DNA from: Oligoflexia bacterium
GTDB taxonomy: Bacteria > Bdellovibrionota > UBA1018
Direction: 5' to 3'
NCBI GenBank assembly: GCA_014376785.1
Contig: JACMQW010000045.1
Span: 1 to 47,876 of the forward strand
Length of the DNA: 47,876 nucleotides
A program made the translations under genes and the position numbers. The notes under the pieces were generated by a model, which saw nothing but the letters and a program-made list of their open reading frames with translations, was not told the origin of the DNA and did not search any database. Of this stretch, positions 14,046-21,996 are shown one piece after another. Each line of letters begins with the position of its first letter. The first letter of the stretch is position 1.

Positions 14046-14067
14046 TTCTTTACTGACCTGAGAATCA
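14043..14067. repeat. Inverted repeat between hydrolase and dnaJ stops
   Basis: Seven-base inverted repeat TGATTCT / AGAATCA with an 11-base loop lying exactly between the two convergent stop codons. It could act as a weak bidirectional terminator or 3' end stabiliser. GC content is low and no U-tract follows, so confidence is limited. Confidence 0.4.
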
Positions 14068-15213
14068 TTCGAAAAGGTTCCGTACCTTTTCGAAAAAGTT
14101 CTTATGCATCGGATGGGTGTGCTCGGTGCCGGAGCCTTCGAAGGTCCGCAGCATTTCTTTCTGCTCTTTTGAAAGTTTAGACGGCGTTTCAATGATCACC
14201 CGAACCAACTGATCTCCTCTTGACGGCGATCCAATAAATGGCATCCCTTTGCCTTTGAGGCGGAGGATTTTATGGGACTGGGTCCCTTCCGGGATTTTTA
14301 CTTTCGCTTTCCCATCGAGAGTGGGGACTTCGACTTCGGCGCCGAGCGCCGCTTGAACAAAGGTGATGGGAACGTCACAGAGAATGTCCGCTTCATCGCG
14401 GGAGAAGATTTCGTGATCGAGTACGCGAATGACAACGTAGAGGTCTCCAGCAGGACCCCCATTTTCTCCCGCTTCACCTTCGTTTGCGAGTTTCAATCGT
14501 TGGCCAGTATCGATCCCGGCCGGAATTTTCACGGCGATTTGGGAACGTTTCTTTAATTTTCCACTCCCGCGACAGTCCACGCAGGGGTCTTTAATCTTTT
14601 GTCCGGTGCCGTTGCAGTCAGAGCAAGGTCGAGAGATCGCAAAGAATCCTTGTTGGAAGTGAACTTCTCCTCGGCCTTGGCAAGTTTTACAAGTCTCTGG
14701 ATGAGTTCCCGGCTTCGCGCCCGAACCTTTGCAGGTTTCACAAGAAACGGTGCGCGGGATGGTGATGATTTTTTCGACTCCGCGGGACGCTTCTTCGAAA
14801 GTGATGTCGATTTGGGTGCGAATATCGGCACCGGCGACTCCTCGAGAACGCCGTCCGCCAGAGCCCCCGCGGCCACCGCGTGCTCCGCCACCCCCAAAAA
14901 TATCTCCGAAGATGTCTCCGAAGATATCATTCATCGAACCTCCGCCCTGAAACCCGCCGCCTCCGAACGGATTACCTCCTCCTCCGCCTTGAGAAAAAGC
15001 AGCGTGACCGTACTGGTCGTACATCTGCTTTTTCTGAGGGTCAGTCAGCACTTCGTAGGCTTCTGAAACTTCTTTGAATTTTTCTTCCGCAGTTTTATCC
15101 CCAGGGTTTTTGTCGGGATGGAACTGAACCGCTTTTTTACGGTACGCTTTTTTCAATTCATCAGCCGTGGCAGATTTTTCAACACCGAGGAGTTCGTAAT
15201 AATCTTTTTTCAT
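14065..15213 (-). CDS. dnaJ: Chaperone protein DnaJ (382 aa)
   Basis: DnaJ is the Hsp40 partner that brings unfolded substrate to DnaK and stimulates its ATPase. The J domain occupies residues 1-70 with the essential HPD at 32-34. A glycine/phenylalanine-rich linker follows (about 75-130, [13 protein letters not shown] and onward). Four CxxCxGxG-type zinc-binding repeats come next ([32 protein letters not shown]), then two C-terminal beta domains. All class I DnaJ features are present and length is normal. It lies 122 bases downstream of dnaK on the same strand, and a 7-base hairpin lies in that gap. The final codons form half of a perfect 10-base inverted repeat at the 3' end. Confidence 0.97.
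14068..14094 (-). repeat. Perfect 10-base inverted repeat over the dnaJ 3' end
   Basis: TTCGAAAAGG / CCTTTTCGAA with a 7-base loop. It lies inside the last ten dnaJ codons (protein [10 protein letters not shown]), ending next to the stop codon. In mRNA this gives a hairpin reaching to the stop. It may protect the end of the heat-shock transcript; no U-tract follows, so a classical intrinsic terminator is unlikely. Confidence 0.55.
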
Positions 15214-15279
15214 GTTCGTCTCGAGAAAGGGCTAAAGGCGAAAGGCAATCTTGGAACGCGAAAGCCGCCCGCCCGTCCA

Positions 15280-15297
15280 GAAGAGGTTTACCTCTTC
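15280..15297. repeat. Hairpin in the dnaK-dnaJ gap
   Basis: Perfect 7-base inverted repeat GAAGAGG / CCTCTTC with a four-base loop, between the dnaK stop and dnaJ start. No U-tract follows on the dnaJ side, so full termination is unlikely. It might reduce read-through from dnaK to dnaJ or mark a processing point, as commonly seen where dnaJ is made in lower amounts than dnaK. Confidence 0.45.
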
Positions 15298-15335
15298 ATT
15301 TTCGGTTGGGCGGCCATCACTTAAGGATCTAAGGA

Positions 15336-17282
15336 TTAGACTTCTTTGAATTCGGCATCAATTGCATCGTCTTTGCCGTCATGTCCGGAGGATTTTCCAC
15401 CTGCTGCGTGAGCGCCAGCGTCGTGGTCCCCCGCAGATCCGCCCGCGCCCATGTCAGGTCCACCTGCGGATGGGCCTGCATTCTTATACAGCTCTTCAGC
15501 CATCTTATTCGAAGCAGTCGTGAGAGTTTCCGTCGCCTTCGTGAGTTCAGCGACATCTTTCGAGTCAAGAGACTTACGGGCTTCGGTCACAGCCGATTCC
15601 ACGGTCGTTTTAGCTTCCGCGGAGACTTTGTCGCCACTTTCCTTCAAGGTCTTTTCGATCGAGTAAATCAAGCTATCGAGAGAGTTGCGCGCATTCACGA
15701 GTTCTTTGCGTTTCTCGTCGTCCGCTTTGTTCTCTTCGGCTTCACGCTGCATGCGTTTGATTTCTTCTTCGGTGAGTCCGGAAGAAGGAGTGATCTTGAT
15801 CGACTGCTCTTTTCCCGTTCCAAGATCTTTCGCAGACACATTCACAAGTCCGTTTGCATCGATATCGAAAGTGACTTCGATTTGCGGAACACCCCGCGGA
15901 GCCGCAGGGAGACCGACCAAATCAAAGCGTCCGAGGGATTTGTTGTGCTCTGCGAATTCGCGCTCACCTTGAAGAACGTGAATGGTCACCGCACTTTGAT
16001 TGTCGCCCGCGGTCGAGAATACTTGCGATTTCTTAGTTGGAATCGTGGTGTTTTTCTCGATGAGTTTCGTCGACACTCCGCCCATGGTTTCGATACCCAG
16101 GGATAGAGGAGTCACGTCGAGGAGAAGAACGTCTTTCACATCTCCCTTGAGGACTCCGCCTTGAATCGCAGCGCCGACCGCAACCACTTCATCAGGATTC
16201 ACGCCTTTGCTTGGCTCTTTTCCGAAAATCTCTTTAACCTTCGCTTGAACGCGAGGCATACGAGTCATCCCACCGACGAGAATGACTTCATCGATTTGGG
16301 ACTTCGTGAGTCCAGAGTCTTTAATACAAGTTTCGCAAGGACCCGCCAGTTTATCGATTAAGTCCGAAACGAGGGATTCGAGCTTAGCGCGGGTGAGCGT
16401 GATGTTTAAATGTTTAGGGCCGGAAGCATCTGCAGTAATAAAGGGAAGATTCACGTCGGTGCTGGTGGTCGAAGAAAGCTCATGTTTTGCTTTTTCTGCC
16501 GCTTCTTTCAAACGTTGTAGCGCCATCTTGTCTCCGCGAAGATCGATGCCGGACTCTTTTTTGAATTCGTCAGCAAGAAACTCGATGATTTTTTGATCGA
16601 AGTTACCACCGCCTAAGAAGGTATCTCCATTGGTCGCTTTCACTTCGAAAACGCCGTCGCCCATTTCGAGGATCGAGACGTCGAAGGTTCCGCCTCCCAA
16701 GTCGAAAACTGCCACTTTAATGTCTTGGCCTTTTTTATCCAAGCCGTAAGCCAAAGCGGCGGCAGTCGGCTCGTTGATGATTCGCTTCACATCGAGCCCG
16801 GCGATCTTCCCGGCATCGCGGGTGGCCTGGCGCTGAGCATCGTTGAAGTAGGCCGGAACAGTGACCACGGCTTCGGTGACCGGCTCTCCAAGGTAATCTT
16901 CCGCAGTCTGTTTCATTTTTTGGAGAACGAGAGCGGAAATTTCTTGAGGAGAATATTCTTTATCGCCGACTTTAATGAAAGCGTCGCCGTTCTTTGCTTC
17001 GACGAGTTTGAAAGGGGCGTGCTTCGCAAAATCAGCCGTTTCGGGAGATTTGAATTTTCGACCCATTAAACGCTTCGCTTCGAAGATCGTGCGTTCAGGA
17101 TTCGTAACCGCTTGGCGCTTCGCCGTTGTTCCGACCAGTTTATCGCCATTCGCGGCAAAACCGACGATCGAAGGAGTGGTGTTTGCACCTTCGCTGTTTG
17201 GGATAACTTTCGCGTCAGAACCTTCCATGACGGATACGCAAGAATTCGTTGTGCCTAAGTCGATACCAATAATTTTACCCAT
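15336..17282 (-). CDS. dnaK: Chaperone protein DnaK (Hsp70, 648 aa)
   Basis: DnaK binds hydrophobic stretches in unfolded proteins in an ATP-driven cycle with DnaJ and GrpE. The N-terminal nucleotide-binding domain starts [16 protein letters not shown] and contains [12 protein letters not shown] and the VGGMTRMP loop. The substrate-binding domain and helical lid follow. The tail is a glycine/alanine-rich linker ending in AIDAEFKEV, close to the conserved DAEFEEV-type end. Start is ATG 17282: the longer frame beginning at GTG 17291 would use a GTG that lies inside the ribosome binding site AAGGTGG, six bases before this ATG. A sigma-32-type promoter (17375-17399) and a small leader hairpin (17303-17318) lie upstream. 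Confidence 0.98.
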
Positions 17283-17302
17283 TTGTTCCACCTTTTACTG
17301 AG

Positions 17303-17318
17303 CAGCCCGGTTGGGCTG
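17303..17318 (-). promoter_or_regulatory. Hairpin in the dnaK 5' leader
   Basis: CAGCCC / GGGCTG with a four-base loop (AACC in the mRNA sense), about 20 bases before the dnaK start. It is GC-rich and close to, but not covering, the ribosome binding site. It could influence mRNA stability. No evidence that it is a thermosensor. Confidence 0.35.
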
Positions 17319-17374
17319 GTTGATATAATTTTTTGAGAGAAGCTTAATTTTCACTGTCTCTAGTTGTTCATAAA

Positions 17375-17399
17375 TTGGGGGTGCCAGGAGCGTTGTCAA
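17375..17399 (-). promoter_or_regulatory. Sigma-32 (RpoH)-type heat-shock promoter of dnaK
   Basis: On the minus strand TTGACA (17399-17394) is followed after exactly 13 bases by CCCCAATTT (from 17380). This matches the known RpoH promoter pattern, CTTGAA-type -35 and CCCCAT-type -10 with a 13-14 base spacer. A second site with the same boxes and spacer precedes grpE. No CIRCE (HrcA operator) repeat is visible. Confidence 0.72.
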
Positions 17400-17420
17400 A
17401 TCAGAGATCTGTTTCAGAAG

Positions 17421-17975
17421 TCAGTGAGCGACTGGAGTTCCACTACTCATCACCACTTTTGCTGGTCGTAGGAGCCTTCCGTGAAGGGTGTAACCCTTCA
17501 CTAACGTCTGAGTAACGGTGCCCGAAGGAAGGTCAGACGGCTCTTGGCCCATTGCTTCATGAAGCTCAGGGTTAAAGGGGGTTCCGCCGCTCGGAATGAG
17601 GGCGACTCCCTGTTTTTCGAGGGTGTTTCGGAATTGGGAGACGGTCATTTCGATGCCCGCTTTCAAGTTCGCGTCCACGGTGCCAGGAATGTGCTCAACC
17701 GCTCTCTCAAGGTTATCGACGACAGCGAGGAGGTCTCGAGCGACGTTCTCCCAACCGTACTTCATGGCTTCGGAACGTTCTTTCACCGCACGTTTTTTGT
17801 AATTATCGAAGTCAGCGTAAAGATAGAGGTATTTGTTTTTTTCTTCTTTTAGCGCCGCTTCGAGTTCAGCGACTCTGCCTTCTGCTCCGCTGACCGGGGC
17901 ATCAGTATTTGATTCAGAGTCTGTTTTTGCAGACGTAAAGTTTGGATCATTCGGCTGGGTGTTTTCGCTGCTCAC
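17421..17975 (-). CDS. grpE: Nucleotide exchange factor GrpE (184 aa)
   Basis: GrpE releases ADP from DnaK, resetting the chaperone cycle. After an acidic, disordered N-terminus there is a long coiled helix (AELEAALKEEKNKYLYLYADFDNYKKRAVKERSEAMKYG, residues about 40-80) with the conserved YADFDNYKKR pattern. The C-terminal beta domain contains FNPELHEAMG and VVMSSG. Start is GTG 17975, six bases after GGAGA, giving 184 aa. A longer frame to 18068 would add 31 residues that extend into the promoter region, so it is rejected. It is first in the order grpE-dnaK-dnaJ. hrcA, often found in this cluster, is absent. Confidence 0.95.
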   Translation of the reverse strand: MSSENTQPNDPNFTSAKTDSESNTDAPVSGAEGRVAELEAALKEEKNKYLYLYADFDNYKKRAVKERSEAMKYGWENVARDLLAVVDNLERAVEHIPGTVDANLKAGIEMTVSQFRNTLEKQGVALIPSGGTPFNPELHEAMGQEPSDLPSGTVTQTLVKGYTLHGRLLRPAKVVMSSGTPVAH

Positions 17976-18019
17976 GCAAGGTCTCCATCGGCTGTGAATT
18001 GAAGGTTTATAACCGAAAG

Positions 18020-18044
18020 ATGGGGTTAAACCAGGGAGTGTCAA
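18020..18044 (-). promoter_or_regulatory. Sigma-32 (RpoH)-type heat-shock promoter of grpE
   Basis: On the minus strand TTGACA (18044-18039) is separated by 13 bases from CCCCATCTT (CCCCAT at 18025-18020), an excellent match to the RpoH consensus. The start of transcription should fall near 18010, giving a leader of about 35 bases before the grpE GTG. It has the same structure as the dnaK site. Confidence 0.77.
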
Positions 18045-18062
18045 ATCGCCATCTTTAAGTGG

Positions 18063-18106
18063 CTGCAAAGAGGCGGCTTTTAAGGGCCGCGAGAAGGGTA
18101 TTGCAG
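18063..18106 (-). terminator. Two-part hairpin after hemW
   Basis: Directly after the hemW stop, outer arms CTGCAA / TTGCAG enclose inner arms GCGGC / GCCGC. Its location between hemW and the grpE promoter suggests it separates the two transcription units. It lacks a clear U-tract, so it is only a candidate terminator. Confidence 0.42.
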
Positions 18107-18107
18107 A

Positions 18108-19283
18108 CTATCCAGCTAGGCTTGCGATGATCTGGTCGGAGAGGGCAAAACCTCGGGGGGTGAGGCGAAGATTTTCAGACTGGGAAGGGTGATTCTCGAT
18201 CAATCCACGCTCTCGAAGAAGGGCCGCTTTTTTCTGCCGATGGTCTGAGTCTAACCAAGCGCGAGGAAATCCGTCGGCCAAGCGCAGCGCAAGCAACCAT
18301 TTCTCCATCTCGCGCTGTTCAGATGTCAGGCTCTCTTTCCATTCGATCACCGATTCATCTTTACGGAGGAGAGAAGCGTACTTATGGAGCGATGAAAAAT
18401 TTTTCCAACGTTCACCCCGTGCAGCATCATAGGAGTGCGCGCTTGGACCGAGTGCTAAATAAGATTCCCCAGTCCAATAGGCAAGGTTATGGCGAGCGCG
18501 GTGTCCGGGTTTCGCAAAATTGGAGATCTCATAGTGCTCAAAGCCTTTCCTAGTCATGGTGCGATCGATGGCTAAGAGGTGTTCGAGTTGCTCATCTTCT
18601 TTGGGAAGGTCTCGAAACATTCGATGGGTTTTTGGCAGGGTCAGTAGGTAACAGGACAAATGAGTAATGGGATAGGCAGTCAACTCATCCATGGCTTTCT
18701 CGACTTCATCGACGGATTGGTTTGGCACCCCGCAAAGCAAGTCGACTGAAACGTTCGTGAAGCCGGCTGAAAAGATGGCGTCGAGCGCTCGGAAGGCGGC
18801 ATCCCGAGAATGGACCCGGCCTAGCGCGGTGAGTAAGTCCGGTCGTAGGGCTTGAACACCCATTGAAATCCGATTCACCCCTAACGCGCGGTACGCTTCG
18901 AGCTTTGAACGGTCGACGGAACTGGGGTTCGCTTCCATGGTCCATTCGGTCCCTGAATGAATGCGTTCAGAAAGTTTTAGCGGGGCCAAAGCCCTCAGCA
19001 TCGATTCAGGAGGAGTCATGCTCGGAGTTCCTCCACCGAAGAAAATGGTGTCTACTTGTTCGCTCAGCCGCAGTGGGAGCGCTTTTCGGGTTGAGTCATC
19101 CTGAATTGCGTCAATTGCAGCACTGTCGATGCTGCTTCCGCTGTACCTTCGACATTCTTGAAAAAGCGCTTCCTCAAAAAGAAGCGGATCTGAGTCAGCG
19201 GTCCGTTCGGCCCCAATCGAGTAAAAATCGCAATAATGGCATTTGGATTCGCAAAAAGGAAAGTGAACGTAAAGTGACCGCAT
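18108..19283 (-). CDS. hemW: HemW-like radical SAM protein (391 aa)
   Basis: HemW is a cytoplasmic radical SAM protein thought to be a heme chaperone; older annotations call it oxygen-independent coproporphyrinogen oxidase. The start MRSLYVHFPFCESKCHYCDF carries the [4Fe-4S] cysteines at 11, 15 and 18. The short CESKCHYC form followed by DF is typical of HemW rather than HemN. FFGGGTPS, the NRISMGVQ and LCGVPNQ segments and a C-terminal HemN-type domain follow. Start is ATG 19283: the longest frame begins at 19421, but that would run across the divergent M16 gene and its promoter. There is no obvious ribosome binding site before this ATG. Confidence 0.9.
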   Translation of the reverse strand: MRSLYVHFPFCESKCHYCDFYSIGAERTADSDPLLFEEALFQECRRYSGSSIDSAAIDAIQDDSTRKALPLRLSEQVDTIFFGGGTPSMTPPESMLRALAPLKLSERIHSGTEWTMEANPSSVDRSKLEAYRALGVNRISMGVQALRPDLLTALGRVHSRDAAFRALDAIFSAGFTNVSVDLLCGVPNQSVDEVEKAMDELTAYPITHLSCYLLTLPKTHRMFRDLPKEDEQLEHLLAIDRTMTRKGFEHYEISNFAKPGHRARHNLAYWTGESYLALGPSAHSYDAARGERWKNFSSLHKYASLLRKDESVIEWKESLTSEQREMEKWLLALRLADGFPRAWLDSDHRQKKAALLRERGLIENHPSQSENLRLTPRGFALSDQIIASLAG

Positions 19284-19295
19284 GGCGCCAAAGGG

Positions 19296-19324
19296 TTTAC
19301 CGCTTTTCACGCTTCCCGTACACT
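19296..19324 (+). promoter_or_regulatory. Sigma-70-type promoter of the M16 peptidase gene
   Basis: TTTACC (19296-19301), a 17-base spacer and TACACT (19319-19324). The -10 box ends eight bases before the ATG at 19333, so transcription should begin at or next to the start codon, and no ribosome binding site lies between. This points to a leaderless message. Confidence 0.6.
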
Positions 19325-19332
19325 CTTCTTCT

Positions 19333-21996
19333 ATGTCGAAATTCCTCCAGCCCGAACTCCTCAGTCTCTCCAACGGAATCCCGCTCATTCTCCAAAATAA
19401 CGACAGCCCCGTCGCCTCCATTTATTGGTGGGTAAAGACAGGAAGTGCGGACGAAAAGCCAGCCGAAGCAGGGTTTGCCCACTTTCTGGAGCACATGCAT
19501 TTCAAGGACACCGATGCGAAGACTTCTAATCGCGCCTCGACCGGTGAAATGGCTCGGTTGATTGAAAGCTTGGGGGGCGACATCAACGCTTACACTTCAT
19601 TTGACCAAACGGTTTACCACGTCACTTGCGCTGCTCACCACTGGGAGAAAGTGCTGAAGGTTTTCGGAACGATGGCGAAACCTCAGCGGTTTTTAAAAGA
19701 GGATTTCCAGCGTGAGCGGGAAGTGATTTTGGAGGAGCTGAAAAAAAATGAAGATTCTCCGAACCGTATGCTTTTCCAATCCCTCTTCACATCGACTTTT
19801 TCGAAGCATCCTTATGGAAGACCGGTCATCGGTTTCACGAAGACACTAAAGGACGCGAAAGTCGGAAATCTTGAAGCTTTCTACCGGCGCCAATACGTTT
19901 CAGGAAACATGGGGCTGATTTTGGTCGGGCCCTTTGAAGAGAAGCGCAAAAAGAGTTTGGTGAAAATTCTCGACGAACTTTTCGGTAAAAAGAAAATTCC
20001 TAAAAAACCGCCGGTTAAAGCGGAGCGGGTCCAAGAAGTCGAAATCCGGTCTCACGCGAAGTTTAATAAAGTTCCTTTCGATGTCACGACTCCCACCATG
20101 GCATTTTCTTTCCGGGTGCCGGATCTTCGACATCCGGACATGCCCGCTCTCGATTTGCTGGGCGGAATTCTCGGTATGGGGGAAATGGGACGGCTCTACC
20201 AAGCGTTGTTTTACGGGAAATCCATCGTGAATGATGTGGGTGGAGGCGTGTATGTTCCACGCGACCCGGGAATGCTTTATTTTACGGCCGATGCCGATTC
20301 AGTCGAGAAACTTCCCGAGATCTTTTCATCGATGCTGGATGAACTGAACCGGATTCAGACGGACGGGCCGACCGATGAAGAGTTGGCACGAGTGGTAACC
20401 AATACTGAAAGCGAACGCTACTACGCGCTCCAAAGCGCGGACGGGATCGCTTCCCGGTTGGGATTTTTGAAGTACCAGCTGGGCGACCTGAATTACGATG
20501 ACCAATACCTCTCCGCGCTGAAAGGTGTGGATGCAGAAAAAGTCCAAGAAGTTGCGGCTCGATATTTTGATCTCCGAAGAATGTCGTTCTCAGTCATGGT
20601 TCCTAAAAAAGACAAAGACTTCGATTTGAAGCCGATGTTTGCCATAGCGGAAGATAAACTCGGAGGCAAAGGCGAATCCTCTAAGCCAAAAGCTGCGAAA
20701 GTCGCGAAACGCAAAATCGGAAGTCCGATCGATATTTTACCGGAACGCATCACGCTTCCTTCGGGAGTGCGGGTCCTTTTCCGGGAGCGAAAATCGTCTC
20801 ACGTCATGAGCATTCAGGCTGCCGTACTCGGCGGTCTCCGCTTAGAAGTTGCGGATCCCGTAACGAAGGCTGAACTGGACATCGGAGCGAGTAATTTGCT
20901 CTCCGGAATCTGGGCAAAAGGCACGCACACCAAGAGCTCAAATGAGATCACGACGCTGATCGAAAATGCGGCGGCGAACCTCGATGGGTTTTCTGGCCGC
21001 AATACCATCGGCCTCGCATCCTCTGGACTTGCGCGTGACTGGACGAAGTTGAGCACGCTTTTTTCCGAAGTGTTGCTGGAGCCCGCATTCCCGAAAGACG
21101 AACTCGATCTGTCGAAGAAAGTGGTCGAGGATGCGATTAAATCCATCGAAGATCACTCGTCGGCGCTTTGCTCGAAACTTTTTCATGAAGCCCTTTTCGA
21201 AAATCACCCGTATGGAAAGTACGCAGCCGGGACGATCGAGAGTTTGGCTTCCATCGATTCAGATCGGTTAAAAGCTTTCCATGAAAAATGGGTTCAGCCC
21301 GAGCGGCTCGTCGTATCGGTGGTGGGAAATATCAGTCGAAAGAAACTGGATCCGTGGTTGGAGTCGCTCGATGCGAGTTTTCAAGCTCGGAAGAAATCCA
21401 GTTCCAAACCTCTGGGATTGGCTAGTATTGGAGACGAACCCGAGACGAAAGGTCCCCGCTGGATCGAAAGGTCGATGGGTCGCGAACAGGTTCACATTAT
21501 CACCGGAGGCCTGGGACTTCGTTTTTCGGATGACGATCGCTACGCCGTCCGACTCCTCCAAAACGTGCTCGGAGGGCAAAGTGGGCGCCTTTTTATCGAG
21601 CTTCGCGAAAAACGGAGTATGGCCTATTCGGTGGCGCCGATCTCTATGGAGGGGATCGAGCGGGGTTATATCGGAACTTACATCGGGTGTTCGCCTTCGA
21701 AAAAAGACGAAGCCATCGCGGGAATTAAAAAAGTTCTGGAAGACTTAGCGAATAAAGGTCCCACCGAGAGCGAAATGAGACGCGCGAAGGAATATTACCT
21801 CGGACGTCGTGTGATGGATCTGCAAGGCGATGGATCGCTTGCGGGTTATTATGCGCTGGAATCGGTCTATGATCTGCCGATTCGCACGGAGACTGAGATC
21901 GTTAAAAAAATAGAGGCGGTGACGGCAAAAGCGGTTCGCGAGGCTTGCCGAAAGTTTTACGTCGAGGCGAACACCGTCACGGCGACGGTCGGTTGA
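19333..21996 (+). CDS. M16-family zinc peptidase, two-domain (887 aa)
   Basis: This belongs to the pitrilysin/insulinase family (M16). The first half has the inverted zinc motif HFLEH (His50, Glu53, His54) and a downstream REVILEE segment (Glu130) that could be the third ligand, so this half looks active. The second half (from about residue 470) repeats the fold without an HxxEH motif (GASNLLSGIWAKGT in its place) and should be the non-catalytic partner. The GLRFSDDDRYAVRLLQNVLGG and REKRSMAYSV segments match the family's substrate-chamber region. No signal peptide is evident, so it may be cytoplasmic, although many relatives are exported. Start is ATG 19333, chosen because of the promoter; a frame beginning at 19282 would overlap hemW. 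Confidence 0.9.
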   Translation: MSKFLQPELLSLSNGIPLILQNNDSPVASIYWWVKTGSADEKPAEAGFAHFLEHMHFKDTDAKTSNRASTGEMARLIESLGGDINAYTSFDQTVYHVTCAAHHWEKVLKVFGTMAKPQRFLKEDFQREREVILEELKKNEDSPNRMLFQSLFTSTFSKHPYGRPVIGFTKTLKDAKVGNLEAFYRRQYVSGNMGLILVGPFEEKRKKSLVKILDELFGKKKIPKKPPVKAERVQEVEIRSHAKFNKVPFDVTTPTMAFSFRVPDLRHPDMPALDLLGGILGMGEMGRLYQALFYGKSIVNDVGGGVYVPRDPGMLYFTADADSVEKLPEIFSSMLDELNRIQTDGPTDEELARVVTNTESERYYALQSADGIASRLGFLKYQLGDLNYDDQYLSALKGVDAEKVQEVAARYFDLRRMSFSVMVPKKDKDFDLKPMFAIAEDKLGGKGESSKPKAAKVAKRKIGSPIDILPERITLPSGVRVLFRERKSSHVMSIQAAVLGGLRLEVADPVTKAELDIGASNLLSGIWAKGTHTKSSNEITTLIENAAANLDGFSGRNTIGLASSGLARDWTKLSTLFSEVLLEPAFPKDELDLSKKVVEDAIKSIEDHSSALCSKLFHEALFENHPYGKYAAGTIESLASIDSDRLKAFHEKWVQPERLVVSVVGNISRKKLDPWLESLDASFQARKKSSSKPLGLASIGDEPETKGPRWIERSMGREQVHIITGGLGLRFSDDDRYAVRLLQNVLGGQSGRLFIELREKRSMAYSVAPISMEGIERGYIGTYIGCSPSKKDEAIAGIKKVLEDLANKGPTESEMRRAKEYYLGRRVMDLQGDGSLAGYYALESVYDLPIRTETEIVKKIEAVTAKAVREACRKFYVEANTVTATVG

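Follow-up and report, generated by a model that had tools for sequence, protein, structure and literature searches.

The heat-shock genes grpE and dnaK of an Oligoflexia bacterium are each preceded by a site of two paired boxes, and both sites are very probably promoters at which RNA polymerase initiates with the one RpoH-type (sigma-32-like) sigma factor that the genome encodes. The DNA analysed, called the window here, is a whole contig of 47.9 kb (47,876 nucleotides) from a 3.22 Mb draft genome that is 96.6% complete. Compared by grpE, the closest named relatives of the genome are two MAGs, 'Oligoflexia bacterium 339R_metabat_159' at 81% and 'Bdellovibrionales bacterium SZAS-2' at 78%. The features of the locus, in the direction of transcription, are as follows.

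18108 to 19421, minus strand: hemW (HemN-related), the upstream neighbour (TIGR00539, 231 bits, above cut-off)
18039 to 18044, minus strand: predicted -35 element (TTGACA) of the grpE promoter; TTGAC is aligned in the grpE upstream regions of relatives
18020 to 18025, minus strand: predicted -10 element (CCCCAT) of the grpE promoter, RpoH type; relatives have CCA at offset 21 from TTGAC
17973 to 17975, minus strand: probable grpE start codon GTG, 44 nt past the -10 box
17421 to 17975, minus strand: grpE, 184 aa (NF010738, 144.5 bits, cut-off 137)
17394 to 17399, minus strand: predicted -35 element (TTGACA) of the internal dnaK promoter, from the sequence and the alignment of relatives
17375 to 17380, minus strand: predicted -10 element (CCCCAA) of the internal dnaK promoter, from the same two sources
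17281 to 17374, minus strand: dnaK leader, with a fold not above shuffles
15336 to 17280, minus strand: dnaK, with its ATG at 17280 (NF001413, 1015 bits, and TIGR02350, 978 bits, both above cut-off)
14065 to 15213, minus strand: dnaJ (TIGR02349, 452 bits, above cut-off)

On the minus strand, positions 18044-18020 read TTGACA-CTCCCTGGTTTAA-CCCCAT and positions 17399-17375 read TTGACA-ACGCTCCTGGCAC-CCCCAA, each with a spacer of 13 bases. A sequence-only reading of the window had described TTGACA and CCCCA-type boxes with this spacing, and its description is correct to the base. Both sites are intergenic. The grpE site lies between the hemW stop (18108), which bounds the promoter region, and the grpE GTG (17975). 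The dnaK site lies in the 140-bp gap between the grpE stop (17421) and the dnaK ATG (17280). The -10 boxes stand approximately 44 nt (grpE) and 94 nt (dnaK) ahead of the start codons, and transcription is predicted to start at about 18013 and 17368. A GGAG ribosome site of grpE is present at 17986-17983. Mechanical ORF calling begins grpE at a TTG at 18068 (adding 17976-18068 of the window), which would place the promoter within the gene. This start is disfavoured because the GTGAGCAG start at 17975 is conserved in both congeners.

The two sites resemble the promoters of E. coli sigma-32 in having TTGA at -35 and CCC(C)AT at -10. The DNA upstream of E. coli dnaK contains TTGAT-N15-CCCAT and TTGAA-N15-CCTAT, whose spacing is the same as that of the window sites. 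The -35 sequence is different, being TTGAC here and CTTGAAA in the textbook E. coli consensus. The arrangement also differs, since a single dnaK site lies between grpE and dnaK here, whereas in E. coli two sites precede dnaK, which does not follow grpE there. The targets of E. coli sigma-32 include dnaK, grpE, clpB, groESL, and clpP, which are the same target genes as here.

Relatives share the core TTG(A/C)C-N16-CCA; position 6 of the -35 box and the leading C of CCCCA are variable. TTG(A/C)C followed by CA at the fixed offset is found in 21/30 dnaK, 17/22 grpE, and 26/28 groES upstream regions, for which the shuffle means are 0.34, 1.06, and 0.95, respectively. With the distance from TTGAC to CCA allowed to vary, the offset peaks at 21 (dnaK 16, grpE 13, groES 24), and other offsets have at most 3 cases. 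Strict sites in 42 named close loci precede grpE in 34/41 and dnaK in 25/42. Both strict sites are present in 20 of 41 named loci, the grpE site only in 13, the dnaK site only in 5, and neither in 3; the opposite strand, used as a control, gives 0/41. The separate dnaK promoter proposed from the sequence is conserved in many relatives, including both congeners, which keep TTGAC-N16-CCA in the grpE-dnaK gap, but it is not a feature of all. The grpE site also occurs outside the close set, in five records (L182, L186, L189, L212, and L217) labelled Bdellovibrionaceae, Bdellovibrionales, Bdellovibrionota, and Bacteriovoracaceae. With the strict pattern, no grpE site was found in Syntrophaceae, alpha-proteobacterial, or gamma-proteobacterial records.

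TTGACN-N12..14-CCCCA has exactly two matches in the 47.9 kb, which are the two sites; dinucleotide shuffles of the window give 0.24 expected matches, and 2/100 shuffles reach two. Over the whole genome, TTGAMA-N12..14-CCCCA has 12 matches versus 2 with the reversed control. Four of the 12 are of the TTGACA type and correspond to grpE, dnaK, clpP-clpX (L228:1501-1525; G000:C97:11004-11028), and one unexplained site. This fourth match, TTGACA-N14-CCCCA at L009:1501-1525 (G000:C71, minus strand), lies ahead of a putative 74-aa ORF.

A second pattern, TTGAC-N15-MCCAW, was shaped after viewing the sites of relatives and the first clpP match. It has 10 matches in all in the 3.22 Mb genome. Five are directly upstream of grpE, dnaK, clpP-clpX, clpB, and clpS-clpA, and the remaining five are within apparent coding sequence. 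The reversed control has 9 matches versus 10, meaning that position is enriched and total count is not. The chance of 5/10 matches lying ahead of heat-shock operons is approximately 2e-16 when 10 operons with 150 bp upstream of each are allowed, a figure that is too favourable, as grpE and dnaK were known beforehand and clpP had already been seen. Since the pattern was shaped on relatives and clpP, full independence can be claimed in this genome for just two recoveries, clpB and clpSA, and the chance of these two alone is, by our own arithmetic, approximately 1e-6. The stricter TTGAC-N15-CCCAT has 5 matches in the genome, 4 of them ahead of such genes, versus 0 with the reversed control; summed over 24 genomes, it has 104 matches versus 45. 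In a genome of the same genus (G001), two of the five strict sites precede clpB and clpSA. G024 and G025 likewise have a site at clpB, and G028 has one at clpA. The promoter of the genome's own groES is unreadable because the contig begins inside groES. The suggestion that the motif could serve as a seed for the regulon is borne out by the recovery of clpB, clpS-clpA, and clpP-clpX in the genome scan and of groES in relatives. The clpP site was found in this genome alone among those examined, with none upstream of clpP in the relatives examined. It therefore seems lineage-specific, and clpP was rejected as an order-wide target. Autoregulation of rpoH through the same motif was also rejected, as no convincing site lies ahead of the sigma gene in the loci examined.

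The RpoH-type sigma factor on which the sequence-only reading depended is encoded in the genome. It is a protein of 413 aa (L078:1232-2473) with sigma regions 1.2, 2, and 4 (Pfam PF00140, PF04542, PF04545). On the RpoH model, this protein scores 257 bits versus 131 for RpoD, and there is one RpoH-like protein per genome. A third protein in this genome that matches the RpoH model is, in our reading, FliA-like. In 53/58 genomes of the class, and in 35/35 of those of good quality, there is one protein whose match to the RpoH model is far better than that of RpoD. The score with NF005143 ('RNA polymerase factor sigma-32') is 260 bits, above the cut-off of 241. The score with TIGR02392 is 256-257 bits, below the cut-off of 323.1, as are all matches in the 58 class genomes. 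In a tree, a 100/100 branch separates the RpoH-like proteins together with E. coli RpoH from RpoD, with the E. coli row forming a long branch. At the position of the RpoH box, the protein has QKKLFFHLM and E. coli has QRKLFFNLR, which are identical at 6/9 residues; there is no agreed threshold for having the box. Relatives have Q(K/R)(K/R)LF(F/Y)xL at this position, and two Bdellovibrionaceae MAGs have the variants QRKLFYRL and QKKLFYQL. The conserved sites, the restricted regulon, and the sigma factor support by comparison the RpoH-like control that had been proposed from the window, and we infer that the RpoH-like factor reads both sites.

The same protein has a charged, low-complexity N-terminal extension of approximately 135 aa before region 1.2 (L078:1232-1640, G000:C35). 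Extensions of a similar kind and of varying length are seen in the RpoH-like proteins of relatives.

Metal-reducing delta-proteobacteria have RpoH-type promoters before groE, dnaK, grpE, and clp genes, and most of them also have HrcA/CIRCE; the operon of Geobacter and Desulfuromonas has the order hrcA-grpE-dnaK-dnaJ (PMC545781). The promoters here stand before the same genes, but there is no hrcA match and no CIRCE. At E <= 0.001, hrcA has no match in this genome, nor in 34/39 relatives searched. The CIRCE element TTAGCACTC-N9-GAGTGCTAA is absent from the window and from 60 grpE/groES loci of relatives with up to 3 mismatches allowed. Control by HrcA/CIRCE was rejected on these grounds, and the absence of both, as reported in the sequence-only reading, holds genome-wide for hrcA and across the window for CIRCE. 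The absence of hrcA is not absolute in a 96.6% complete draft; the agreement across the order is persuasive. Five relatives of one genus have weak matches to the HrcA model, covering the first ~55 of 338 positions only. The matching open frames (L043-L047, family f5) are 231-271 aa long, match the model's first 55 positions, and perhaps encode a winged-helix regulator related to the DNA-binding part of HrcA.

TTGACA is also the -35 box of sigma-70 promoters. The window sites could be ordinary sigma-70 promoters in which the likeness to CCCCA is incidental, as the TTGACA is perfect and several groES sites of relatives have a TATAAT-like hexamer at a spacer of 16-18, matching at 5/6 positions in some. 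However, the best TATAAT match at this spacer is 3/6 in the two window sites, and the scan finds no sigma-70 promoter on the minus strand between grpE and dnaK. Sigma-70 promoters would also leave unexplained why CCA is fixed and why the sites cluster at chaperone and protease genes, and we regard this explanation as very unlikely. It is also very unlikely that the heat-shock promoter at grpE is genuine while the dnaK site is a chance match or a decaying copy. Such an origin would fit the lower frequency of the strict dnaK site among named relatives and the -10 box that ends CCCCAA here, not CCCCAT, but relatives' dnaK sites far exceed the shuffle mean (21/30 versus 0.34), and the site lies in a 140-bp gap where both congeners keep the core motif.

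The paired boxes could instead be an operator for a repressor or an activator and not a promoter. Two fixed blocks approximately two helical turns apart could form a bipartite binding site, and disruption of the RpoE-like bd0743 de-represses the groE genes of Bdellovibrio bacteriovorus, directly or indirectly (PMC3464611). However, the blocks form neither an inverted nor a direct repeat. Their -35/-10 geometry, ~44 nt (grpE) and ~94 nt (dnaK) ahead of the start codons, is that of promoters, their order and spacing match E. coli sigma-32, and a matching sigma factor is encoded. An operator is highly improbable.

With both sites taken as RpoH promoters, the first would drive grpE, with read-through into dnaK and probably into dnaJ, and the second, within the operon, would add a dnaK(-dnaJ) transcript. 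Accumulation of unfolded protein would raise RpoH activity and turn on grpE, dnaK, clpB, clpSA, clpPX, and, in relatives, groESL together. Control would thus be positive, via the sigma factor, with repression by HrcA/CIRCE absent. Heat induction of grpE and dnaK is predicted on this basis. On the minus strand between grpE and dnaK, neither a sigma-70-like promoter nor a terminator-like site was found. As there is no terminator there, transcripts from the grpE promoter probably reach dnaK, and DnaK would be made from both promoters. The arrangement may affect the DnaK:GrpE ratio, and it is reasonable to expect that two promoters raise DnaK over GrpE.

These results predict the heat-shock promoter and regulon of a large group of Bdellovibrionota, most of them uncultured, for which no published RpoH regulon was found in the literature searched. 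The mechanism is a textbook one, and this is ordinary biology in a little-studied group. Several Bdellovibrionaceae MAGs have the same promoter at their grpE loci. In B. bacteriovorus, groES1EL is heat-induced, and the inducing factor was left unnamed (PMC3464611). The sigma factors of this predator are RpoD (bd0242), an RpoD homologue (bd3314), FliA (bd3318), an RpoN-like factor (bd0843), and two RpoE-like factors (bd0743 and bd0881) (PMC11209729). Bd3314 is a 373-aa protein with regions 1.2-4 and is apparently essential, since a knock-out was not obtained. Published work leaves it without an assigned role and, as no RpoH box is present, considers it 'unlikely to be RpoH' (PMC3464611). In contrast to Bd3314 as published, a variant box, Q(K/R)KLF(F/Y)xL, is retained in the RpoH-like proteins here and in those of the two Bdellovibrionaceae MAGs. 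Since the genomes here carry RpoD, FliA-like, and RpoH-like proteins, bd3314 is by elimination predicted to be the likely orthologue of the RpoH-like protein; Bdellovibrio proper stands outside the class of the window. Contrary to the published exclusion, it is moderately likely that throughout Bdellovibrionota the apparently essential sigma factor of Bd3314 type is RpoH, that it has a variant box and a charged extension at its N-terminus and uses the promoter TTGAC-N16-CCA, and that it is the sole control of the chaperone regulon, without HrcA. Bd3314 of the model predator becomes an RpoH candidate and, if it is RpoH, would account for why groES1EL is heat-induced, which earlier work could not attribute to a factor.

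RNA structure was also considered. No Rfam families were found in the window, and an RNA thermometer in the dnaK leader was rejected, as its fold is no better than that of shuffles (z -0.94). A large hairpin of -44 kcal/mol is predicted between dnaK and dnaJ (15210-15340, minus strand), with 1/200 shuffles as good (z -2.75). It could be a terminator or attenuator, or a processing signal, that reduces dnaJ relative to dnaK.
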